A stretch of 64,000 nt of DNA from Cobetia marina (GTDB lineage Bacteria; Pseudomonadota; Gammaproteobacteria; Pseudomonadales; Halomonadaceae): positions 1,302,001 through 1,366,000 of the forward strand of contig NZ_CP017114.1 in the NCBI RefSeq assembly GCF_001720485.1, given 5' to 3'. The notes beneath the pieces are model-generated. The model made no database searches and was not told the DNA's origin. It saw only the letters and a program-made list of their open reading frames with translations. Position numbers and translations under genes: made by a program. Of this stretch, positions 2,217-43,567 are shown piece by piece (position 1 is the stretch's first letter; every line of letters begins with the position of its first letter).

Positions 2217-2293
<77 letters not shown>

Positions 2294-3914: not shown

Positions 3915-4235
3915 CTAGTCACCTTGATAACGGCCCGAGCTGTAGCCCAGGGCCTGCTCTTCTTGCGCGGCGGCATGATTGGCCATCGCGTCTTGCACAC
4001 CGGGCACCTGCATCACCAAGGTGTACTTGCGGCGCCAGTGATCTCGTCGTTGGCTGATCATCACGATCAGGTCTTCCAGTGGCAGTGCTTCACCATCTTC
4101 TGCGGCGTACCCGGTACCGTGACAATGGGCGCATGGGGAGATATGGAAGACGCCTCGAAATGTGCCGCTGCCACCGCATTGCGGGCATGGCCCATGCGCT
4201 GGCGGCTCCCACGATGCTTGCGATACCTGACGCAT
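3915..4235 (-). CDS. Small zinc-finger protein with two DnaJ-type CxxCxGxG motifs
   Basis: 106 residues. The N-terminal half holds CPQCGGSG and CAHCHGTG, the paired cysteine motifs of a DnaJ-like zinc-binding fold. The C-terminal half is helical and charged, with no J domain. Similar small proteins occur in early operons of lambdoid phages, without a function I can name. It starts 13 bp after the methyltransferase stop codon and has a GGAG just upstream, so it is cotranscribed. A zinc-dependent nucleic-acid or protein-binding role is likely but unproven. Confidence 0.65.
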   Translation of the reverse strand: MRQVSQASWEPPAHGPCPQCGGSGTFRGVFHISPCAHCHGTGYAAEDGEALPLEDLIVMISQRRDHWRRKYTLVMQVPGVQDAMANHAAAQEEQALGYSSGRYQGD

Positions 4236-4248
4236 AGACTCCTCACAC

Positions 4249-5163
4249 TCACGCTGCTTGCTGCAGCGCCTTGATGATGTGGCTGACCGGCGTAGGGCAG
4301 ACAGCGTTGCCGAGCAGGTGCACGGCGAGGCGATGGTTGTCCGGTAGCTGGTAGGTGTCGGGGAAGCTCATGGCCGACCGGCATTCCCACCGGCTGAGCA
4401 TGCGCATGCGGTCGCCATCGATGATGGCCCATCGATCACGGGTGGTGATGGTGCCGATGGGGCGATCCAGCGAGCGCCCTGTCTTGGTGTTCCCGTAGTA
4501 GCTGATCAGGAAGCGGTCGCCGTGGGTGGCACGGCCAGCGCGAACTCGCTCCAGGGTGGCGGCGGCTCGCCCGGGCTTCTCGATGGGCTGCCAGCGGCCT
4601 CCCTCGAAGTCGATGAAGCTGGCGGCCGGCAGGTGATCGAGTGTCGGCAGGTTCAGCTTGAGTGGCTGGACGGACTGGGTGAGTACCAGGAACATGCGGA
4701 TGCGGTTCTGCGGCGCGCCGAGGTCAGCGGCGTCTACCATATGCGGGCTGACGGCATAGCCCAGTGCCTGCATGGCCAGCACCCAAGGGCGGTAGAGCTG
4801 CCAGTCGAGGAACTCGGGGACGTTTTCCACGAGGATGGCTGGCGGGCGGTGATACTCGGCAGCCGATACCACTGCCCAGGCAGTCGAGCGGCTGGCATCG
4901 TGCAGAGGGTTACCGCTGGCCTTGCCCCGCGCCTTGCTGTGGCCTTGGCAGCAGGGTGACGCCAGCATCAGGTCATGCGCGGGCACCTGACTCCAATCCG
5001 CCTGATGCAAGTCCTGGCAGATGTGCGCTGCGTCTGGATGGTTGCGGCTGTGCCACTCGACAGCATCCGGCCAGTGGTTTGCAGCCCAGGCCACGTTGCA
5101 GCCGGCCATGCTGGCGCCGGTGCTGAATCCACCGGCACCGGCGAAGAGGTCGATGACGTTCAT
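4249..5163 (-). CDS. DNA (cytosine-5-)-methyltransferase
   Basis: 304 residues with the ordered motifs of C5 methyltransferases: motif I DLFAGAGGFS at the N-terminus (SAM binding), motif IV with the catalytic cysteine in ASPCCQGHS, the ENV motif VI (LVENVPEF), and QNRIRMF (motif VIII). The target-recognition part is short, so the recognised sequence cannot be predicted. No restriction endonuclease gene lies next to it, so it looks like an orphan phage methylase that may protect phage DNA from host restriction. Its ATG overlaps the stop codon of the gene upstream (5160). Confidence 0.93.
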   Translation of the reverse strand: MNVIDLFAGAGGFSTGASMAGCNVAWAANHWPDAVEWHSRNHPDAAHICQDLHQADWSQVPAHDLMLASPCCQGHSKARGKASGNPLHDASRSTAWAVVSAAEYHRPPAILVENVPEFLDWQLYRPWVLAMQALGYAVSPHMVDAADLGAPQNRIRMFLVLTQSVQPLKLNLPTLDHLPAASFIDFEGGRWQPIEKPGRAAATLERVRAGRATHGDRFLISYYGNTKTGRSLDRPIGTITTRDRWAIIDGDRMRMLSRWECRSAMSFPDTYQLPDNHRLAVHLLGNAVCPTPVSHIIKALQQAA

Positions 5164-30229: not shown

Positions 30230-30646
30230 ATGGCGATCACCCTTGAGGGCATTGTCTTGCCCGATGACATCCAGTGGACCGATGAGCTGGTGTCCCACAG
30301 CGTCGGCCAGGTGCAGACGCCCACGCTGACCGGGGCACTCATCATCGAGGAGTCTGCGCAGGCGGCAGGGCGCCCCATTACCCTCGCCAGCGGCAACGGG
30401 GCCTGGGTAACTCGCGCCACCGCGTTGGCTCTCACAGAGCTGGCGGCCACGCCACGGCCAGACGACACGCCCATGACGCTCACCTGGGGCGATGGGCGCA
30501 CCTTCGATTGCGTGTTCGATCGTGCCAGTGGTGAGGCGGTCACGGCCACCGAGGTCTATCGCCTCGCCGCTGGCGGCCAAGGGCCGGATCACCCCTACAC
30601 CATCACGCTGCGCCTGATCACGGTGATCGATTCATCTAAAGGTTAA
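30230..30646 (+). CDS. Tail protein following the tape measure
   Basis: 138 residues, beta-rich: ITLEGIVLPDDIQWTDELVS, MTLTWGDGRTFDCVFDRASG, YTITLRLITV. Similar proteins follow the tape measure in phages with this tail type and are probably distal tail components. It ends in a four-base convergent overlap with the antisense gene behind it. Confidence 0.6.
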   Translation: MAITLEGIVLPDDIQWTDELVSHSVGQVQTPTLTGALIIEESAQAAGRPITLASGNGAWVTRATALALTELAATPRPDDTPMTLTWGDGRTFDCVFDRASGEAVTATEVYRLAAGGQGPDHPYTITLRLITVIDSSKG

Positions 30647-30936
30647 AGATAAGCAAGAAGCTTATCGTGTACAGCGACGTTTAGAGATGGCCTATAGCTT
30701 TCGTGAGAAAGATCATAGGAATGCAGTGCATCTTCGATCTTTTTTATCATCGAGTACTCGTTGACGTTGTAGTCATCCATGAATTGATTAATGAAATAGA
30801 GAACCTCATAAGCTTCGTCTTTATCTACCCTGTCTCGATCTAGCTTCCCTGTATATGGAGCGTCCCCATCATCTCTGTAGTTTTTGTATTGGTATTTATG
30901 TTGTTGAAGATCGCTCATTTTTGCTTCCAATGCCAT
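30643..30936 (-). CDS. AT-rich accessory (moron) gene of unknown function
   Basis: 97 residues on the strand opposite to the tail genes. ATG 30936 follows AAGGAG with seven-base spacing. The protein is acidic and Tyr/Asp-rich (HKYQYKNYRDDGDAPYTGKL, DEAYEVLYFINQFMDDY). Its DNA and the 220 bp upstream (30937-31156) are much more AT-rich than the tail genes, indicating separate transfer and probably its own promoter. I do not recognise the family. Expression in the lysogen and a host-benefit or anti-phage role are plausible. Confidence 0.65.
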   Translation of the reverse strand: MALEAKMSDLQQHKYQYKNYRDDGDAPYTGKLDRDRVDKDEAYEVLYFINQFMDDYNVNEYSMIKKIEDALHSYDLSHESYRPSLNVAVHDKLLAYL

Positions 30937-34620: not shown

Positions 34621-35823
34621 ATGGCCGATTTTTCCGTGAAGTGGTTCAGCAGTGACATGGGCGGCAGCCCCGAGAATGGCGACCAATATGGTGCGCTGAT
34701 CGAGCTGCTGAAAGCCTGCCTTGTGACCGGCTTCAACACCAAGCCCATCGCTTCGCTGACGTATGACAGTACCGCCCAGCAAGCCACCGCGAGCGTGGGC
34801 AGCGGCCACGGCTATCTCAAATGGCAGGTGATCGCCATCAGCGGGGCAGACCAGGCTGGCTACAATGGCGAGCACCGCGTGACTGCCATCGGCAGCGACT
34901 GGGTGCGCTTCGCGCTCAATACCGCGCCCGCTGCCACTGAGGCGACCGGCGAGCTGATCGAGATCAAGACGGCTCCCGTGGGTGGCTGGGAGGTGGTGGC
35001 AGAGGACGCCGAAACCTACCGCATAGCTTTCCAGCGCACTGACTCGCGTGCCACCGATCTGACGCTAATTGTTAGCAATGGGAATCGCTCGCAGTACAGC
35101 AGCAATCCCAATAGCTACACCCGCTTTGCACTCGCCAGATGGGTGCCTGGGTTTGTGGACTTAGACACCTACGAGAGTGCTACGGGGCGATTTTGGCCGT
35201 GTTCAGGGCTAGAGCTTAACGTCGCACATGACTGGGTGATCGTTGCTGATCCTCTTATGTTTTACTATATGAATCGCTATGGGGAATCAGGGCAAAGAGG
35301 ATTTATCCCCAGTGGCGACATCCTATCTGTTAGGCCAGGGGATGCGTACCATTGTTTGAATTCTGGCATATCATCCTCTGAAGGCTGGCAATCAACGTCC
35401 TACAATATGTATCCGCGTTTACTCGAGTATGGCGATGATTATGCAACGTCAATAAGCAGAGGTCACACTCAACTGCCAGGCGATGTATCAGCATCTTTGA
35501 TCGGCACTGGTGAAAGGATGGGGAGTGTTATTGGCTATCCCAATAAATCCGATAATGGATTTTACATTTCGCTCAATAGGATCATTGTGCGTGAGGGTAG
35601 TGAAGGCGAGACACAAGAGGCTCGCGCCGGCCAGTCTATCCGTGGCTACCTGCCAGGCGTCCTCGAGCCGCTGCATTCTTCCAGTGTCTATGATATGGCC
35701 GTCATGGATAACCTGCCCATGCTCGAGGGCGTGCCGGTGCTGACGTGCATGGTGGCAACTAAGAGTGATGATGCTGAGGGTGGTCTGATCGCGTTCCGCT
35801 TAGATGACTGGAGGCAGGCATGA
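34621..35823 (+). CDS. Tail protein, probable tip or fibre component
   Basis: 400 residues from ATG 34621 (GGAG nine bases upstream). The N-terminal quarter is GC-rich and resembles tail proteins that follow the previous gene (DFSVKWFSSDMGGSPENGDQ). Residues from about 145 to 330 come from AT-rich DNA with different codon use, and the last 60 are GC-rich again. This mosaic pattern is usual for host-recognition proteins. It overlaps the next gene by four bases. Confidence 0.6.
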   Translation: MADFSVKWFSSDMGGSPENGDQYGALIELLKACLVTGFNTKPIASLTYDSTAQQATASVGSGHGYLKWQVIAISGADQAGYNGEHRVTAIGSDWVRFALNTAPAATEATGELIEIKTAPVGGWEVVAEDAETYRIAFQRTDSRATDLTLIVSNGNRSQYSSNPNSYTRFALARWVPGFVDLDTYESATGRFWPCSGLELNVAHDWVIVADPLMFYYMNRYGESGQRGFIPSGDILSVRPGDAYHCLNSGISSSEGWQSTSYNMYPRLLEYGDDYATSISRGHTQLPGDVSASLIGTGERMGSVIGYPNKSDNGFYISLNRIIVREGSEGETQEARAGQSIRGYLPGVLEPLHSSSVYDMAVMDNLPMLEGVPVLTCMVATKSDDAEGGLIAFRLDDWRQA

Positions 35824-36947
35824 GTTACCAGAGTGCAGTGCTTGCGGATTCGCCTGCCGACTATCTGGTGATGGATAGCGCAGGGAATATAGAAAACCTG
35901 GGCGCATCGCCATCTGCAGTAGAGGCAATTGATCCGAACCCCGTATTCTCTCCGCAGGCTTATAAGCGTGCGCGAGAATATACCCATGTGACTGGCTTCA
36001 ATGGCGACGCATATGCCGTGCTGCAGTTGTCTGATCATATAGTGGCGGGCGGCAGTTTTACTTGTGAGTTTTTCCTCGCAAATCAAAGTAACGAAGTAGC
36101 GCCCACCATCTCGATAAATAAGCCCGACAAGGGTGGTTATCAGTTTTTGATTGGGTTTACTACCGCGTTCGCTAATCATGTTTATTATAACGGCGGCGGG
36201 CCATCCGGTAGTCGCGCTGATTATGTGTTTGGCGGTGACTATGATCACATTGCTTTGTTGGTTGATCGAGATAATGAAAGCGTTTCTTACATTATCAATG
36301 GCAGTTTGCGCCCTGATCTTGAGCTGAGTGTAGCGGGGCTAGACATTGCTATGTCAACAGAAATGTATATTGGTGCTTATTCGTCATCCGGCACTGTAAA
36401 AGGGGTTAGAGGTTCTGGTCGCATAGAATCGTTTGCAGTGTATAACCGACTCATTACCGAGGAGGAGGTGGCCAACCATCTCGCAAGCGATGTGGCAGAG
36501 AGGGCGCAGCGAGAGCTTGTGACTGGCGGGGCTGGCATATCAGCGCTGATCAGTGGGCCGATATCGAACCCGCTATCCATTGGCGCGAGTGGGCGCAGCT
36601 CAGTGGTGGCAATCCCGCGACGCGGCTTGATGGTTCATGTCGATCAGCTCGACGGCAGTGGCGGCAATGGCACGGCCACTGGCGGCGTCTCAGATCCCGC
36701 GCGCATGGGCGTCATTGCCGGCACCGTGCTGGACATCCATGCCCAGCCGATCAGCCGGCGCGTGCGGGTGCATGACCGGATCACCGGCCGCATCGTGCGC
36801 GAGGCGTGGAGCGGGGCCGATGGCAAATACCGCTTTACGGATCTCGACCCTCGCCGCGCGTTCTATGTGATGGCCTTCGATTACACCCTGCAGCAAAACG
36901 CTGTCGTGTCAGACAACGTGCATTCTGAGGTGGAGGACAGCCCGTGA
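35820..36947 (+). CDS. LamG-like tail fibre protein with C-terminal regulatory-like Ig domain
   Basis: 375 residues. Residues about 1-215 look like a concanavalin-A/LamG sandwich (AVLADSPADYLVMDS start, GGSFTCEFFLANQ, MYIGAYSSSGTVKG, FAVYNRLITEEEVANH). Residues about 290-370 resemble a carboxypeptidase-regulatory-like domain (GVIAGTVLDIHAQPISRRVR, GADGKYRFTDLD). The first part is AT-rich, the second GC-rich. It probably binds a cell-surface glycan. Confidence 0.65.
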   Translation: MSYQSAVLADSPADYLVMDSAGNIENLGASPSAVEAIDPNPVFSPQAYKRAREYTHVTGFNGDAYAVLQLSDHIVAGGSFTCEFFLANQSNEVAPTISINKPDKGGYQFLIGFTTAFANHVYYNGGGPSGSRADYVFGGDYDHIALLVDRDNESVSYIINGSLRPDLELSVAGLDIAMSTEMYIGAYSSSGTVKGVRGSGRIESFAVYNRLITEEEVANHLASDVAERAQRELVTGGAGISALISGPISNPLSIGASGRSSVVAIPRRGLMVHVDQLDGSGGNGTATGGVSDPARMGVIAGTVLDIHAQPISRRVRVHDRITGRIVREAWSGADGKYRFTDLDPRRAFYVMAFDYTLQQNAVVSDNVHSEVEDSP

Positions 36948-37345
36948 TCAGCTTCTCGACAAGCGTGAAAAATGCACGCCTGGCGGCCATCGCCGGCGCG
37001 ATTGATGCCGGCGATTCGCCGGCGTCATTCGTCGTGTACTCCGGCACCCGCCCATCACCTGGTGCTGCCGTCACCGATCAGGTGGCGCTGGCCACGCTGG
37101 AGGTACCCCAGCCATTCGCCGCCGATCTCTCTGGTGGCGTCCTGACGGGGGCAGCCTTCGAGGAGGTGATGGCCGATGCCGATGGCGAGGCCACCTGGTC
37201 GCGCCTGGTCGATGGCGCGGGTGCCTGGGTGATGGATCTGGATGTCGGCATCGAGGGATCAGGCGCTGACGTGACCATCAGCTCGACAACGATTTATCGC
37301 GGGATACTGACGCGGATCAGCCGCATGGTATTCGCTGAGGGCTAG
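36944..37345 (+). CDS. Tail-associated hypothetical protein
   Basis: 133 residues: a helical start (VKNARLAAIAGAIDAGDSPA) then beta-rich sequence (SFVVYSGTRPSPGAA, LATLEVPQPFAADL). Proteins like this accompany the hub gene in phages with the same tail module. Overlaps the fibre gene by four bases. Function unknown. Confidence 0.55.
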   Translation: MISFSTSVKNARLAAIAGAIDAGDSPASFVVYSGTRPSPGAAVTDQVALATLEVPQPFAADLSGGVLTGAAFEEVMADADGEATWSRLVDGAGAWVMDLDVGIEGSGADVTISSTTIYRGILTRISRMVFAEG

Positions 37346-37353
37346 GGGGCACC

Positions 37354-39438
37354 GTGAGAGAGATCAGGCTGCAGTTTGTCCAGGGGCTTGCCCCCTGGAA
37401 TGCGCGAGCGCTCGAGCTGCGCCTGGGTGGCGATCCTGGTTTGCTGCTGCTGTTCGCCGGTGACTATGTGCCGCCGGCGGGTGGCAATGTCGTGCTGGGC
37501 TTCGGCGGTGCCACTGAGGCGTTGGAGCTGCCGCGCGAGCTGGTGCTTGATGCCCAGCTGACGCCGCCATCCCTCGATGCTCGGCTCGCCCAGGGTGGAG
37601 CCATCGAGATCGCGGCTAGCCTGGTGATGCCAGCAGCCACCGTGCGTGCGCAGCTCGAGCTGATCCAGTCGCTCAGTCTGGAGGCGAGCGCGCCGCCGGT
37701 GACGGCAGAGATCCGCGTCGAGCATGGTGTCAGCCTTTCGCTGGTGGCCACGCTGGGCGCGCCGGCGGTGGTCGATGTCGCGCTGACCCGCGAGATCAAT
37801 GTCTTTCGTGGGCCATCAGATAGTGCCGGTGCCCGTTTCGAGAACGCGGTCCCGCTCGAGGCCCAGGGCAGCACCCGCTGGGAGCAGCCGGCTCGCCCCT
37901 ATGGCACCACCGCGTCAGCTTTCGAGCAGGGCGCAACGCTTGCGGCCAGCCAGGGCGGCCAGTGGGCGGCACGCCCCCGCACCGATGCCATCAGTGGCTC
38001 GCGGTGGGAGCAGGCCGAGCGCATCCTGGGCACCCTCAGTGGCAGCCAGTGGCTGCAGCTGCCGCGTGTCCGCCGCGCTTCTCGGCCGGTATGGGAGCAG
38101 GGGCAGGGCATCGCCGCTGCTCGCTCGAGCGGCTATCAGCACCCGCCCCGCAATGATGCCCGCCGGCGCTCGCGCTATGAGGAGGCCCGCACCCTCGAGC
38201 CGGTGACGATGGATGTGCCCTATCAGCAGGGGCGCACCACCGGCGACGATTGGCGCGTGCCCTGGGAGCAGGCCCGCCGGCCACCGCCTGGCATCGACTT
38301 GCCGCCAGATCCGCCTGAGCCGCCGGTGCTCGAGCCGGTGGAGGGCACCACCACCCTGCAATTCTGCCACGCCATGCCGAGCGCCCCGTGGGTGCTGCAG
38401 TTCGGTCTGACGTGTGAGATACCCACCCCGACCATTCCCGTCAAAAGGCTCTATATCGTGCAAAACTCCGCGCGCCTGGTGCGCCTCTCCGATGGCCTGG
38501 AGCTGCCGGCCACCCAGATGACGCTCAGCATCGACGCTGACAGCTGGGCATGGTCATTCTCTGCCGGCCTGGCAGGGCGTGATGCTCAAGCGCTGGTGAC
38601 CGGCACCGATGGCCAGCCGGTGGAGGTGATGGCCGAGATCAATGGCGAGCAGTGGCGGTGCCTGGTGGATGGCTGGCGACGCTCTGAGAGCTGGCAGAGC
38701 CATAGCGTGACCATCAGCGGCCGCTCGCTCGCGGCGTACCTGGGCGCGCCCTACGCCACCGCGCGCAGCTACACCGAGGACAGCCAGGCCACCGCCTCGC
38801 AGCTTGCCCGTGCTGAGCTGCCAGAGGGCTGGTCACTGGATTGGCGCATGACTGACTGGGTGGTGCCCGCCGGTGCGTGGAGTTATGACAGCCTCGCGCC
38901 CATCGACGCCATCTCGCGGATCGCCCAGGCGGCCGGCGGCTATGTGCAGGCCCATCAGCAGGATCAGACCATTATCGTGGCGTCACGCTTCGAGGCAGCG
39001 CCCTGGCGCTGGGCTGAGGTCGAGGCTGATCTGGCGGTGCCCCGTGACATCATCACCCAGCTGGGCAGCGATCAGCAGCCAGGCGATGCCCGCAATGCCG
39101 TGTGGCTGTATGGTGATACCGGCGGCATTCAGGCCCAGATCATCCGGCAGGGCACCGCGGGCGATCAGCTGGCACCCACCGTGGTGGATAGCCTCATTAC
39201 CGAGCAGGCGCCCGCACAATCGCGCGGCATCGCAGAGCTTGCCGCCACACTGCGCCAGTCCACGGAAAGCATCGAGATGCCATTGAGCGCCTCGCTGGGT
39301 GGGCTGGTGTTGCCTGGGCAGCTGATCGAGTGTGATGGCTGGCGTGGTGTCGCGCGTGGCGTGAGCGTCAGTGCAAGCCTGCAGGGGCGAGCCCTGAGCG
39401 TCCGTCAATCCCTCGAGCTGCAGCGCTTTCATCAGTGA
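37354..39438 (+). CDS. Tail hub-like protein with WEQ-type tandem repeats
   Basis: 694 residues, GTG start after AGGGGG. N-terminal 165 residues are beta-rich. Residues about 166-305 consist of roughly ten degenerate units of 14-15 residues, each opening with a Trp/Phe/Tyr followed by Glu or Gln (SRWEQAERI, RPVWEQGQG, RSRYEEART). A Pro-rich hinge (LPPDPPEPPVLEP) leads to a C-terminal half (about 320-694) that resembles tail hub or baseplate proteins (SIDADSWAWSFSAGLAG, ISRIAQAAGGYVQAH). Confidence 0.7.
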   Translation: MREIRLQFVQGLAPWNARALELRLGGDPGLLLLFAGDYVPPAGGNVVLGFGGATEALELPRELVLDAQLTPPSLDARLAQGGAIEIAASLVMPAATVRAQLELIQSLSLEASAPPVTAEIRVEHGVSLSLVATLGAPAVVDVALTREINVFRGPSDSAGARFENAVPLEAQGSTRWEQPARPYGTTASAFEQGATLAASQGGQWAARPRTDAISGSRWEQAERILGTLSGSQWLQLPRVRRASRPVWEQGQGIAAARSSGYQHPPRNDARRRSRYEEARTLEPVTMDVPYQQGRTTGDDWRVPWEQARRPPPGIDLPPDPPEPPVLEPVEGTTTLQFCHAMPSAPWVLQFGLTCEIPTPTIPVKRLYIVQNSARLVRLSDGLELPATQMTLSIDADSWAWSFSAGLAGRDAQALVTGTDGQPVEVMAEINGEQWRCLVDGWRRSESWQSHSVTISGRSLAAYLGAPYATARSYTEDSQATASQLARAELPEGWSLDWRMTDWVVPAGAWSYDSLAPIDAISRIAQAAGGYVQAHQQDQTIIVASRFEAAPWRWAEVEADLAVPRDIITQLGSDQQPGDARNAVWLYGDTGGIQAQIIRQGTAGDQLAPTVVDSLITEQAPAQSRGIAELAATLRQSTESIEMPLSASLGGLVLPGQLIECDGWRGVARGVSVSASLQGRALSVRQSLELQRFHQ

Positions 39439-39567
39439 GCTTGCGAGGGATATCAATCTGAATTAGAAAGAAGGCCGTTAGAATGGTGAATATCCATAGC
39501 TATTGTTTGATGTTGCTATCATTGTCGTGATGAGAGGAAAAGGGATTGATGTTGTTTTAAATATAGC

Positions 39568-39593
39568 AGCGCTCGCACATCATGCCGAGCGCT
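39568..39593. terminator. Hairpin between tail hub and accessory operon
   Basis: AGCGCTCG (39568-39575) pairs with CGAGCGCT (39586-39593) around a ten-base loop; on the plus strand ATTTTTAT follows nine bases later. It lies between convergent genes and may end both transcripts. The surrounding 39439-39647 is AT-rich and otherwise empty. Confidence 0.45.
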
Positions 39594-39647
39594 GAAGGTT
39601 AATTTTTATATCGAGTTGATCTGTTAGAGCAGCAGAGCAAACATGCT

Positions 39648-40781
39648 CTATAATATATTTATCAAAGAGTTTTGGTTGGCCTGATACGATCTTCCTGGAC
39701 TGCTTATTAGTCCATTGAAAGTATACCCTGTAGACGGGATCGGCGAGAAAGGATCACTATGTATATCTATATCATAACCTTTCAAACAGTTTCCAAACTT
39801 ACCTAGCGCAATAGTTTTTACAGATTTTGCACCGCCTTTTAACAACAATGCCGCGGCTACACCAAAAGACACACCATAAGTTGTACAGTCATCCAGCAAG
39901 ATTACGTTTTTATCTTTCAAAGATTTCTTGTAGAAAGGGTTGATATGTATGGTTTCTATTTGATTGTTAGGTATACTTCGACCTGTAGACGCACCTTTTG
40001 ATCTCTTAGGTGAAGCTGAATGTCGTATAAAAAGTGGTTCTTCTCTCTTTGCATGCCGAGCGCGAGTAGTTGCAGTCCTGAGTCTATGACTAAACTCACT
40101 TAATACATCTGTATCATTGTTAGTGCTAGAAGATGATGGGTATATACCCCACATGGTTTTTTCTATATTTGTGATATTGTCCTTCAGTAAGGATCTGGCT
40201 GTAATAGCTAATAAAGAGTTTAGTTTGTTTCCGCCATTTTTTACAACCTTCGTAATCCTAGCGGAAAAATCACTTTGCGGTTGGGATTGATTGTAGCCCG
40301 ATAGGTCTGATAAGGATGATACTGTGTAGGAACAAAAATCTACATGGTGCCACCACAGATTATCCCAAGAACTAATTGTGTCTACAATTTTCTCAAAATC
40401 AGAAGGAGTACCAGAGCTAATCCCAAGATTGCGCACATAGTCTTCATTAGACCATGAGGCCCCTATAATAAGGGCGTTGCCATTTGTTCCCATTTGCACG
40501 TCAATTTTGCTATATGCTAGCACTATCACATCAAATATCGTAGATGCTTCAGCATCGGCAATTGAACTGATAATAGTGCCTTTTTGTCTTCCTAGCTCTT
40601 GTAAAAACTTCACAGAGCTACCTGAGAAATGTGCATCGAACCAAGTTGGCTTACTATGATTTGATACCATGTAAACACTATGCTGCTGTTTTGCGGCAAT
40701 GTTTTTTAAGGAGGTAGCCACGTCTGTTGAACAAACGCCATTTTCATACATTATCTTTGTAGAGCAAATTATAACCGACAT
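39648..40781 (-). CDS. Phosphoribosyltransferase-domain protein of a DprA-PRTase pair
   Basis: 377 residues. The C-terminal third is a type I phosphoribosyltransferase: NVILLDDCTTYGVSFG is the PRPP loop (two acidic residues then TTYG), followed by LLLKGGAKSVKTIALGKFG. The first 200 residues are unfamiliar; VYMVSNHSK and VIVLAYSKIDVQMGTNG suggest a Rossmann- or HAD-like fold without its usual aspartate motif. It starts 15 bp after the DprA-like gene, so the two form an operon. The DNA is strongly AT-rich. PRTase domains paired with DprA have been proposed in conflict systems, which I recall but could not check. Confidence 0.75.
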   Translation of the reverse strand: MSVIICSTKIMYENGVCSTDVATSLKNIAAKQQHSVYMVSNHSKPTWFDAHFSGSSVKFLQELGRQKGTIISSIADAEASTIFDVIVLAYSKIDVQMGTNGNALIIGASWSNEDYVRNLGISSGTPSDFEKIVDTISSWDNLWWHHVDFCSYTVSSLSDLSGYNQSQPQSDFSARITKVVKNGGNKLNSLLAITARSLLKDNITNIEKTMWGIYPSSSSTNNDTDVLSEFSHRLRTATTRARHAKREEPLFIRHSASPKRSKGASTGRSIPNNQIETIHINPFYKKSLKDKNVILLDDCTTYGVSFGVAAALLLKGGAKSVKTIALGKFGNCLKGYDIDIHSDPFSPIPSTGYTFNGLISSPGRSYQANQNSLINIL

Positions 40782-40796
40782 TATACAATCCCTTGT

Positions 40797-41663
40797 TTAG
40801 TTTATATTGTTTGTGATATCACTGATATCGTTGACTTTTACTGCTCCGAGTTTTAAATACTCATTAGGCCATGTTAACGTTTTATCCTCGAAACAGCTAT
40901 TGAGTATAAATAATTTTCTGCCTTGACGTATTGCATGACGAGCTTGAGTTAACGTGCCTGATTTATCTTTGGCTTCAATTATGACCGTCGCTTTAGATAT
41001 GCCGGACATAGTTGCGTTTCTCTCCGGGAAAAAGCGGCTATTAGCCTTGTAGGATTGACCGGAATAATATAGGTACGGTATTTGGCTTATTAGTAGATGG
41101 TTTCTTGAGATATAATTTTGAAAACTCGAATTCTTTTTAGGGTAGCTTTTATGTGTAGGAGTCCCAATTACTGCAATAGTATTGCCTCCACTTAGTACGG
41201 CAGTTTGATGCACGATTGTATCAATGCCATCAGCAAGGCCGGATACCAACGTGTAATCATGTTCGATTAATAGCTTGGCTATTTTATGTGCTCGTTGTTG
41301 ACCTTCAAACGAAGCCTCTCTTGAACCAATAATTGCTATAGTCTTTGTTTTTAAAAGGTCAGGGTTGCCTAGGAAATAAAGAAGTTGTGGGCTATTTTTA
41401 ACGTTATTCATTAATTCAGGGTATTTTTCGTCCCCCTTCAATAATACTCCTACTTCCCTTAGATGTTCCTCCCCGGCTTCTAAGATCAGTTTTTCTACTG
41501 TCGATTCAACATGGCCGGCTTTTAGTAGTGTTTGCTCTGCATCTAGATTACTAGCTTGAAAAAAGCTCCACAAAGTTGAATAGTTTGTAGAGTACTTTAG
41601 GCATAATTCTTCATATGCTGCTATCAATTTAATCTTGTTCTTAGCTCCTTCGTTATCATCCAT
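40797..41663 (-). CDS. DprA/Smf-like protein of a DprA-PRTase pair
   Basis: 288 residues. After a divergent helical N-terminus (about 1-75) comes the DprA Rossmann core: LLYFLGNPDLL, IAIIGSREAS, TLVSGLADGIDTIVHQTA, NTIAVIGTPTHKSYPKKN, FFPERNATMSGIS, KSGTLTQARHAIRQGRKLF and YLKLGAVKV. The C-terminal winged helix of competence DprA is absent. It is the upstream gene of an AT-rich two-gene operon inserted against the tail genes. Chromosomal DprA loads RecA on single-stranded DNA; this phage copy more likely senses nucleic acid or nucleotide in a defence role (inference). Confidence 0.85.
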   Translation of the reverse strand: MDDNEGAKNKIKLIAAYEELCLKYSTNYSTLWSFFQASNLDAEQTLLKAGHVESTVEKLILEAGEEHLREVGVLLKGDEKYPELMNNVKNSPQLLYFLGNPDLLKTKTIAIIGSREASFEGQQRAHKIAKLLIEHDYTLVSGLADGIDTIVHQTAVLSGGNTIAVIGTPTHKSYPKKNSSFQNYISRNHLLISQIPYLYYSGQSYKANSRFFPERNATMSGISKATVIIEAKDKSGTLTQARHAIRQGRKLFILNSCFEDKTLTWPNEYLKLGAVKVNDISDITNNIN

Positions 41664-41745
41664 CTTATTGCCTTTAAACTGTCAATGTGATCTGATTTTT
41701 CAATCAGAGGCTTAATTTACTTTACTTACAAAACGGAGAAAAGCA

Positions 41746-41967
41746 ATGGGGAATCCCTACAAGCGACTACTAGCATTATTTCCTAGCATACCGCGGCAGG
41801 TAGGGGAAGTGATTAGTGTCAGTGGATCGCGCGTGCGCGTGGATCTAGTAGGGGGCGGTATGCGCACCTGTCAGGGCGATGCACAGGTGGGTAGCATGGT
41901 CTACGTGGAGGGGGATCAGATCACTGGCGTGGCGCCGAGCTTGCCGGTGGTGGTGGTCGAGGTATGA
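41746..41967 (+). CDS. Small beta-barrel-like tail-operon protein
   Basis: 73 residues: NPYKRLLALFPSIPRQVGEV, then VSGSRVRVDLVGGGMRT and MVYVEGDQIT, a compact OB- or SH3-like strand pattern. Comparable small proteins follow the hub gene in phages with this tail type, so the accessory operon 39648-41663 appears to have been inserted between this gene and its usual partner at 37354-39438. GGAG precedes the ATG. It is the last phage gene before attR. Confidence 0.65.
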   Translation: MGNPYKRLLALFPSIPRQVGEVISVSGSRVRVDLVGGGMRTCQGDAQVGSMVYVEGDQITGVAPSLPVVVVEV

Positions 41968-42039
41968 CTGCATGCTGTGCCTGCGATAACCCCATTCACC
42001 CTGACGCATCATTGAAGCTCAACCTAGCGCCGCTAGTCT

Positions 42040-42060
42040 TGTATGGTGGTGTGTATGGTG
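42040..42060. promoter_or_regulatory. Candidate integrase arm-binding sites (right)
   Basis: Two direct copies of TGTATGGTG (42040-42048 and 42052-42060) with the same 12-bp spacing as the pair at 2407 and 2419, 43 bp from the attR core. Confidence 0.6.
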
Positions 42061-42102
42061 AAAGAGAAAATCGTGATACATGTCTTTAATGGCGGGGCTG
42101 TA

Positions 42103-42123
42103 CGACTCCTGCAGGGGGCGCCA
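42103..42123. repeat. attR core
   Basis: Copy of the 3' end of tRNA-Arg (2273-2293), 21 of 21 bases identical. The bases upstream do not form a tRNA, so this is the phage-host junction. Sequence to the right is the original chromosome. Confidence 0.9.
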
Positions 42124-42397
42124 GCCCTTCATTCATCCCCGCGTCATTCTTTCCTGAATCTCTCGTCACTCTCTGTACAGGGTGTCTTTCTGCTGTCTCT
42201 CGCTTGCCTGCCCTCTGGCTTGCGGGTCACGTCCTGCGCGCCCATGCGCCAGCAGCTTTCAGAGTGAGCCGGACCCCGGCTTGAGCAGCACGGCGCCTCA
42301 TGCATGGCACGTCATTTATGATGCCCTGACCTGTTGCCCGGAGAATGGCAGTCGTGCCGGGCGGGGCAGGGCATCTCGTCATTCCATCGCGTTGTGT
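42124..42397. other. Gene-free chromosomal flank right of attR
   Basis: No convincing gene or RNA is visible between attR and the glycosyltransferase stop codon. The reading frame starting in the phage arm (42043-42267) crosses attR and has no family resemblance. Confidence 0.5.
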
Positions 42398-43567
42398 TCA
42401 GTCGCGATGTGCTGCCTCGGCATCCGTTGGCAGGGCCAGAAATTCCTGCATGATACGGGTGTCGCGGAAACGTTCGATCAACTCCGGATCCTCGGCGAGT
42501 GACGGCGGGTTCTCGAGCCCTTCGCGGATCTTGGCTGCCAGGCCTTCAATGCTGTTCTCGGAGATCAGCCGCGCCTGATCATGGATCAGCACATTGCGGA
42601 CCCCACCGGGGACATCCGGCGCGACACATGGCGTGCCGCAGCACATGCTTTCCACCAGCACGATTCCGAAGGCTTCACTGCGCGAGCTGAGAATGAACAG
42701 ACGGGCATGCTTCATCCACGGGTAGGGATTGACCCGGCTGCCGATGAGATGGACCCGGTCGCCCACCCCGAGCTCGCGAATCAGGTTCTCCACACTCTCG
42801 CGCTTTGGCCCATCGCCGACGATGACCAGGTCTTCCTCGATATCCGCGGCGAGATAGGCCTTGATCAGGACATCCTGACGCTTCACGTCCGACAGGCGAC
42901 ATACCTGCACGACATAGGGACGTGATGGCAGCTCCACGGGCTCATCCGCCATCTGCGCGATGGCATCGAGATCGCAGACGTTGCCGATGGTGGCGAGGCG
43001 TCGAGGCGTGACAGCGTGTTGCGAGAGCAGTCGCTCGAGTTGCTCGCGGACATTGTCGGTATTGCAGATGATCTGCTTGTCGGCGTATAGGCGCTTGAGC
43101 AGGAATTTCTGACGCCAGCCCTGGCGGATGTCACCGGGCCAGGACACGGTGACCTGCCACAGGCGCGGGTCCTTGAGTGACCAGACCGTCTCGAAGGCGC
43201 CCTGGCCGCGCATGATCACCCGATCGACGGGGCCATGGCGTGTTTCCAGGGTACGGATGAATCGCCGCAGGTAGGCGCCACCGTAATAGCCGCGCCAGAC
43301 GAATCCAGAGCCCTTGATCAGAGGGTTGAGCACTGCGCGGGTGAAGAGGTCATACACCAGGCCAATGCCGGTCTTGCGGAATGCCTTGTCGAAGTCGATC
43401 TGGTGGACATGTACGCCCGGGTCCGGGATGAGTTCGAGTTCACCCTTGAGCACGAGCACATGCACCTCGTGACCTTCGCGGCACAGGACATTGGCCAGAT
43501 TGACGGTGTTTCGCTGGATCCCGCCGATGTTGAGCTTGCGTACCACAAGCAGGACGCGTTGTTTCAT
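42398..43567 (-). CDS. GT4-family glycosyltransferase
   Basis: About 389 residues. GT-B fold: an N-terminal Rossmann domain (VLLVVRKLNIGGIQRNTVNL, the usual GG-x-x-R acceptor-side start) and a C-terminal nucleotide-sugar domain with QVCRLSDVKRQDVLI, LVIVGDGPKRE and the E-x7-E signature in SRSEAFGIVLVES. Likely substrate is a UDP- or GDP-sugar in lipopolysaccharide or exopolysaccharide synthesis; the acceptor is unknown. ATG 43576 is an alternative start. Confidence 0.85.
   Translation of the reverse strand: MKQRVLLVVRKLNIGGIQRNTVNLANVLCREGHEVHVLVLKGELELIPDPGVHVHQIDFDKAFRKTGIGLVYDLFTRAVLNPLIKGSGFVWRGYYGGAYLRRFIRTLETRHGPVDRVIMRGQGAFETVWSLKDPRLWQVTVSWPGDIRQGWRQKFLLKRLYADKQIICNTDNVREQLERLLSQHAVTPRRLATIGNVCDLDAIAQMADEPVELPSRPYVVQVCRLSDVKRQDVLIKAYLAADIEEDLVIVGDGPKRESVENLIRELGVGDRVHLIGSRVNPYPWMKHARLFILSSRSEAFGIVLVESMCCGTPCVAPDVPGGVRNVLIHDQARLISENSIEGLAAKIREGLENPPSLAEDPELIERFRDTRIMQEFLALPTDAEAAHRD

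Follow-up and report, generated by a model that had tools for sequence, protein, structure and literature searches.

A probable, divergent ShosTA toxin-antitoxin pair carried as antisense prophage cargo in Cobetia marina

Here we present an analysis of a 64,000-nucleotide stretch of the Cobetia marina genome (RefSeq assembly GCF_001720485.1, contig NZ_CP017114.1, positions 1,302,001 to 1,366,000 of the forward strand; hereafter the window) and of an AT-rich, two-gene block within it. The first gene, shosA, encodes a DprA-like protein, and the second, shosT, a protein with a HAD-like domain and a phosphoribosyltransferase (PRTase) domain; the two are separated by 15 bp and opposed to the surrounding prophage tail genes. 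The pair is very probably a ShosTA toxin-antitoxin phage-defence module, encoded antisense, as cargo, at the right-hand end of a tailed prophage integrated at a tRNA-Arg gene, and from homology we infer that it acts in defence. On this assignment, the pair is a divergent member of a known defence system and is itself no new kind of system.

The locus and its two proteins

An initial annotation, made from the sequence alone, had described the two genes as AT-rich, antisense and closely spaced, all of which was borne out. Both open reading frames (ORFs) were recovered at exactly the coordinates in Table 1, open and full length, in an insert with a G+C content (GC) of 0.383, as against 0.613 in the remaining prophage and 0.638 in the DNA rightward to the window end. 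The 3' end of the tRNA-Arg gene recurs as an exact 21-bp repeat 440 bp to the right of the shosA start, at a putative attR taken as the right prophage end. In addition, an IMG/VR contig of 39,558 bp (L027), whose ShosT is 100% identical, ends with a small gene of family PHROG 5076, the only gene recognised between the pair and the putative attR. From the repeat positions and the ending of this contig, the prophage measures ~39.9 kb, with the pair at its right end. No close DNA-level relative of window positions 35000-42600 was found among the INPHARED phages, and the tail hub protein encoded to the left of the pair matches 34 phage records, none of which covers 80% of it.

ShosA matches the PADLOC ShosA model PDLC03961 (E 9.1e-83) and, over residues 70-277 of 288, the Pfam family PF02481 (DNA_processg_A, E 3.4e-57), as expected of a DprA-like antitoxin. 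No winged-helix Pfam family was found in it at E <= 1, in agreement with the DprA core without winged helix that had been proposed at the outset; the host's own DprA, encoded elsewhere in the genome, has 432 amino acids (aa) and a longer C-terminus. In the PDB, entries 8zva and 9vzo were identified by sequence as ShosA, and 8zvb/8zvc/8zvd, 9w2p and 9w2q as ShosT; the former two match the window ShosA with E values of 1.2e-19 and 1.3e-19.

The adjacent ShosT matches PADLOC model PDLC03962 (E 4.7e-45), although this model of 237 positions also matches, near end to end (E 1.8e-48), a HAD-less PRTase of 212 aa in a related locus (L010:7339-7977) and thus fails to separate the two kinds of protein. 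Residues ~1-138 correspond to a HAD fold, and the PRTase part extends to ~330. Solved ShosT aligns across the HAD half, so that the N-terminus, which the initial annotation had found unfamiliar, is no longer unexplained. Furthermore, a profile built from 30 ShosT homologues retrieved only ShosT chains from the PDB at E <= 1e-3. Residues D297 and D298 of the phosphoribosyl pyrophosphate (PRPP) loop are invariant in 30/30 aligned homologues, which sustains the early description of a PRPP-binding PRTase, though the matches to the PF00156 and comF families are sub-threshold. Among the proteins retrieved by sequence search, the nearest ShosT (P0001) is assigned to Cobetia marina, is full length and is 97% identical.

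The site expected for HAD motif I, located by predicted strand rather than by superposition, follows a strand predicted at residues 2-6, where the window protein has STK and most homologues have SPD. In 29/29 alignment rows with residues there (30 rows in all), no Asp occurs at residues 6-8, and the DxD nucleophile of an active HAD phosphatase was not found after strand 1. On this alignment, the motif-I nucleophile is missing from the HAD half, for which a structural or ligand-binding role is likelier than phosphatase activity.

Table 1. Positions of the gene pair, its cargo site and the putative prophage ends in the window
Feature	Position	Strand	Description
shosA	40797..41663	-	DprA-like (SLOG/Rossmann) antitoxin, 288 aa; first gene of the pair
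shosT	39648..40781	-	HAD-like domain and ComF-like PRTase, 377 aa; toxin by homology
AT-rich insert	39439..41745		Cargo site between hub and small gene; 2307 bp, GC 0.38
Tail hub gene	37354..39438	+	Left anchor of cargo site; PHROG 6079 tail protein, E 3.1e-130
Small gene	41746..41967	+	Right anchor of cargo site; 73 aa, PHROG 5076, E 2.9e-21
Inverted repeat, 9 bp, perfect, 10-nt loop	39567..39594		Between convergent hub and shosT; possible terminator
Inverted repeat, 7 bp, perfect, 4-nt loop	41691..41708		Between divergent shosA and small gene; possible operator
tRNA-Arg(cct)	2217..2293	+	3' end (2273-2293) is the putative attL
Putative attR	42103..42123	+	21-bp exact copy of the tRNA-Arg 3' end

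Likeness to ShosTA and to other DprA-PRTase systems

The window pair shares with ShosTA, as represented by the PADLOC models and the solved structures, the two-gene DprA and PRTase operon, the DD of the PRPP loop, the DprA core of ShosA and the fold of the whole ShosT chain, HAD half included. The differences lie in length (ShosT 377 versus 432 aa in the solved protein; ShosA 288 versus 318-331 aa) and in the PRPP loop, which reads DDCTTYG in the window and DDFCTEG in solved ShosT. Of PADLOC's two ShosTA model pairs, PDLC03961/03962 describes the window pair far better than PDLC02997/03012 does; it is to the latter that the solved proteins, presumably from E. coli, would belong, judging by their lengths.

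Several results weigh against the ShosTA assignment. Identity to solved ShosT is only ~18% (phmmer E 2e-05), the other PADLOC ShosT model (427 positions) matches weakly (E 2.8e-07), PF00156 stays under its gathering score (E 0.0022) and the PRPP loop departs from the canonical form ending in TTG. With such a distant member, the assignment rests on fold and operon rather than on close sequence, and the low identity and the weak match to the longer model mean that the enzymatic activity of the window ShosT may differ. The protein is also rare. A tblastn search of 50,697 annotated phage records (INPHARED) gave no match, and only 3/151 genomes of the family matched at E <= 0.001; these include the window's own genome and a match of just 44 residues. 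At E <= 1e-10, a ShosT profile found 2/398 genomes of the phylum (the window's own and a 72-residue match) and 1/369 of the class (the window's own). ShosT does match a PHROG family end to end, and 11 plasmid records match it, one of which covers at least 80% of the query (Rhizobium beringeri, 50%). A search with PDLC03012 found 0/274 class genomes and 0/14 controls, and with the controls silent too it is uninformative on absence. Additionally, a promoter scan of the locus gave 5 sites against a shuffled mean of 6.8, with no excess over shuffled sequence, and the two triggers named in the papers, as excerpted, differ. A terminator scan was likewise near chance (3 versus 2.3); it covered loops of 3-8 only and did not list the 39567-39594 repeat.

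Other systems resemble the pair in part. In PsyrTA/RqlHI, a helicase-PRTase toxin is paired with a DprA antitoxin, and the likeness to the window pair lies in the DprA partner (the PsyrA model matches window ShosA with E 7.7e-29) and the ComF-like PRTase. The window ShosT differs in carrying a HAD domain and lacking a helicase: its match to PsyrT spans only 50 residues (279-328, E 4.7e-04), and no fusion to a RecQ-like helicase is present. The parallel between ComF-DprA and RqlHI is already in print (excerpts of PMC4670107 and PMC5512222). The ComFC and DprA proteins of natural transformation belong to the same domain families as the pair, which is set apart from them by its HAD domain, its prophage setting and a TIGR00201 comF match (E 3.2e-05) of 23.9 bits, far under the curated cut-off of 233.55 bits. 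Closest in setting is a DprA-PRTase pair from P2-like prophages that, according to an excerpt of PMC9122126, protects E. coli against T7 and lambda and sits in a small prophage hotspot flanked by conserved genes of the phage. The phage type and anchors differ, those in the window being the tail hub and PHROG 5076 genes near attR, and the likeness is one of description. ShosTA has also been reported in Pf prophages of Pseudomonas aeruginosa (excerpt of PMC11878078).

The initial annotation had proposed a lysogen-expressed defence or conflict module in which the DprA fold would sense DNA or nucleotide and the PRTase would act on a nucleotide. Defence fits a DprA-PRTase kind with demonstrated anti-phage activity (PMC9122126, in excerpt), while DprA as a sensor exists as a published proposal only, and the division of roles needs correcting: in a review excerpt, ShosT is the toxin and ShosA a DNA-binding antitoxin that counteracts its toxicity. 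The same excerpt gives T7 Gp0.7 as a trigger, citing Pu et al. 2025.

By homology and fold, the published mechanism may be carried over to the window pair as follows. The lysogen would express shosA-shosT from a promoter of its own, since the block lies against the tail operon. ShosA, through its DprA core, would bind DNA and either keep ShosT harmless or help to repair the damage it causes, as a review excerpt reports for the characterised system. When an invading phage disturbs the cell, ShosT would take effect, binding PRPP through the DD loop and acting as a PRTase or pyrophosphatase, an activity published, in the excerpts, for characterised ShosT. Purine pools would then be upset and DNA damaged, and the infected cell would die or stop before the phage multiplies. 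The HAD half would serve as a structural or ligand-binding part.

A cargo site shared by related prophages

The arrangement of the site was compared across 12 distinct prophages: the window's own (the same as L027), L028-L035 from IMG/VR, L037 and L044 (G045), and L038 (G030). The count excludes L027 and L036, copies of the window's own prophage; L046, an incomplete second hub from the G045 prophage that also holds L044; the broken hub of G019 (L043, L045), directly followed by a 37%-identical relative of PHROG 5076; and the more distant hub relatives of G091, G144, G152 and G200 (36-41% identity), for which the retrieved stretches contained no PHROG 5076 gene that could be recognised. No two hub regions were more than 97.2% identical, the window and its own copy excepted.

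In 8/12 prophages (L028, L029, L030, L031, L035, L037, L038 and L044), the site is empty, the hub and PHROG 5076 genes being 44-48 bp apart as counted from hub residue 693, a distance that includes the last codon and stop (the insert length in Table 1 is counted after the stop). The remaining four are filled, which confirms that the pair parts the hub gene from the gene that normally follows it. Besides the window insert, these are, with lengths counted as in the eight, L032 (1440 bp, two genes without an assigned family), L033 (1863 bp, a DUF2971 gene and one unknown gene) and L034 (1198 bp, one DUF2971 gene). All four inserts have a GC of 0.33-0.38, and their longest ORFs are all antisense to the tail genes. 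The DUF2971 genes (L033:7090-8028 and L034:7198-8079) match the PADLOC candidate-defence model PDC-S31 with E values of 2.8e-46 and 6.5e-45. Cargo recurs between the hub and PHROG 5076 genes, close to attR, which makes this place a hotspot. Comparable small hotspots in prophages have been described, for P2-like phages among others (PMC9122126, as excerpted), and in the open-licence literature on Cobetia prophages and defence, surveyed by title, no title concerns such a site.

The pair might instead serve the prophage itself, either as an addiction module acting by post-segregational killing or by excluding close relatives. A toxin-antitoxin layout with the antitoxin gene first and a short spacer, and a position just inside the putative attR, would suit such a role. 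The pair is also dispensable to this phage type, given that eight of the prophages have an empty site and three carry other cargo. On the other hand, the cargo of two sister prophages at the same site is a candidate defence gene, and a relative that was tested experimentally gave phage resistance (excerpt of PMC9122126). We consider a self-serving role unlikely, if far from negligible; the biochemistry would be the same, and addiction is compatible with the pair being a ShosTA defence module.

Further AT-rich genes were seen in and around these prophages. The two antisense genes of L032 (L032:7101-8384) encode 194 and 200 aa, the former with weak C-terminal helix-turn-helix matches below cut-off. 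To the right of PHROG 5076 lie a HEPN_LA2681 gene cut by the contig end (L028:7659-8852), a SocA/Panacea gene with a second gene (L029:7555-8465) and a PIN_8 gene (L034:8601-9968). AT-rich genes occur at this place in L031, L038 and L044 as well; the one among these that was searched, L031:7957-8727, had no family match. The attR repeat was detected again in L029, in L032 and in L047 (the G045 prophage of L044), and its copies in L029 and L047 put the place right of PHROG 5076 inside the prophage for these two only. In the G045 and G030 prophages, the hub 3' end and the PHROG 5076 gene recur as incomplete duplicates farther downstream (L047:1606-1707 and 4109-4306; L049:1858-1956), a pattern that recombination within the anchor genes, exchanging the cargo, might leave. 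In the window's own prophage, a small AT-rich antisense ORF of 97 aa (30643-30936, minus strand, GC dip 0.42-0.46) sits between two plus-strand ORFs and is a further cargo candidate.

Relatives of ShosT and a possible wider family

A non-exhaustive pattern scan with the ShosT alignment, covering one genome per species in 84,980 species, matched 79 stretches and led to 20 ShosT-relative loci, whose neighbourhoods were classed with a simple longest-ORF caller and tblastn. A ShosA-like (DprA) gene lies nearby in 16/20, so the co-occurrence that the initial annotation had named as a check on its defence proposal is upheld, and 11/20 have a second PRTase gene. Five loci have DprA and ShosT only (L014, L016, L018, L021, L023); four have DprA, a small PRTase and ShosT (L010, L011, L019, L022); and seven have a HAD-PRTase, DprA and ShosT in either order (L007, L008, L012, L013, L024, L015, L017). 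In two (L009, L020), no DprA gene was found and a YspA-like SLOG gene (PF10686) directly follows shosT (L009:9143-9670, L020:9146-9661). The last two were left without a class: L025 is decayed, and L026 is a piece at a contig end that may be the remainder of L024. Among nine ShosA proteins compared, the closest to that of the window are those of L016 (45%), L011 (43%) and L010 (42%), and L010 and L011 carry the extra PRTase.

The loops of the second PRTases are canonical or near-canonical in the 10 of 11 that were aligned (L022 was left out): DDVTTTG or DDVVTTG in the seven HAD-PRTases, DDVLTTG in L010 and L011, and DDVITKG in L019. Motif I DxD is retained in 7/7 HAD-PRTases. No description of the extra partners, the second PRTase or the SLOG swap, was found in the open-licence literature.

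A tree of 18 ShosT proteins, from the window and 17/20 loci (the gene pieces L024, L025 and L026 were left out), is mostly unresolved, with 10/15 inner branches open, and in it the window protein, whose composition is unusual, sits on a long branch. The four types of neighbourhood are grouped rather than scattered over the tree, with 5 changes against a shuffled mean of 9.7 and a value as low in 0/200 shuffles; the tree does not settle whether the second PRTase was lost or gained, nor whether the window form is reduced. Two neighbourhoods deserve mention in their own right. In Salinicola, an AbiJ N-terminal-domain gene (L016:9122-10018) overlaps the shosT end by 4 bp, and in Pseudomonas endophytica the ShosTA pair (L014:5861-8089) is probably in a prophage, since it has a gpJ-like tail tip gene and one of chitinase type close by.

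The long branch and odd composition, together with STK where most homologues have SPD, would suit a decaying or inert remnant of cargo. Against this, both frames are open and full length, a full-length copy is 97% identical (P0001) and the PRPP-loop residues are kept; we hold a remnant to be very improbable. A ComF-like PRTase and DprA pair that helps phage or host to handle incoming single-stranded DNA, in uptake or recombination, is the least credible alternative: besides the low ComF score, no competence or purine-salvage gene was found among the 10 neighbour proteins sampled at 9 loci. The same two results make a purine-salvage role unlikely. Five of the 10 proteins, from L011, L014, L020 and L023, are of integrase, resolvase, phage-tail or chitinase-type lysis kinds.

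Beyond the ShosTA assignment, we tentatively put forward a broader proposal, which as a whole is doubtful. ShosT might belong to a wider defence family that combines SLOG proteins with PRTases and usually encodes two of the latter. One would be ShosT itself, its HAD half dead and its PRPP loop altered; the other, whose loop is canonical, would stand alone or be fused to a HAD domain that keeps motif I intact. On this view the window would hold a reduced, two-gene version with a single chain doing the work of both PRTases, and the prophage site would be a small hotspot for defence genes close to attR in Cobetia prophages. An exchangeable SLOG partner, DprA or YspA-like, would point to sensing of nucleotides or DNA ends by the SLOG fold as the common principle.

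With the ShosTA assignment, a protein that had been the least explained part of the locus is now recognised, and a divergent, prophage-borne pair becomes a test case for the generality of the reported purine and DNA-damage mechanism. The parts most worth following are the neighbourhoods with a second PRTase (11/20) or another SLOG protein (2/20), which open the roles of ShosT and DprA to direct comparison, and the cargo site of the Cobetia prophages. The hub/PHROG 5076 site provides a ready anchor for finding candidate defence genes in these prophages and, if the wider-family proposal is true, can be mined for new systems.
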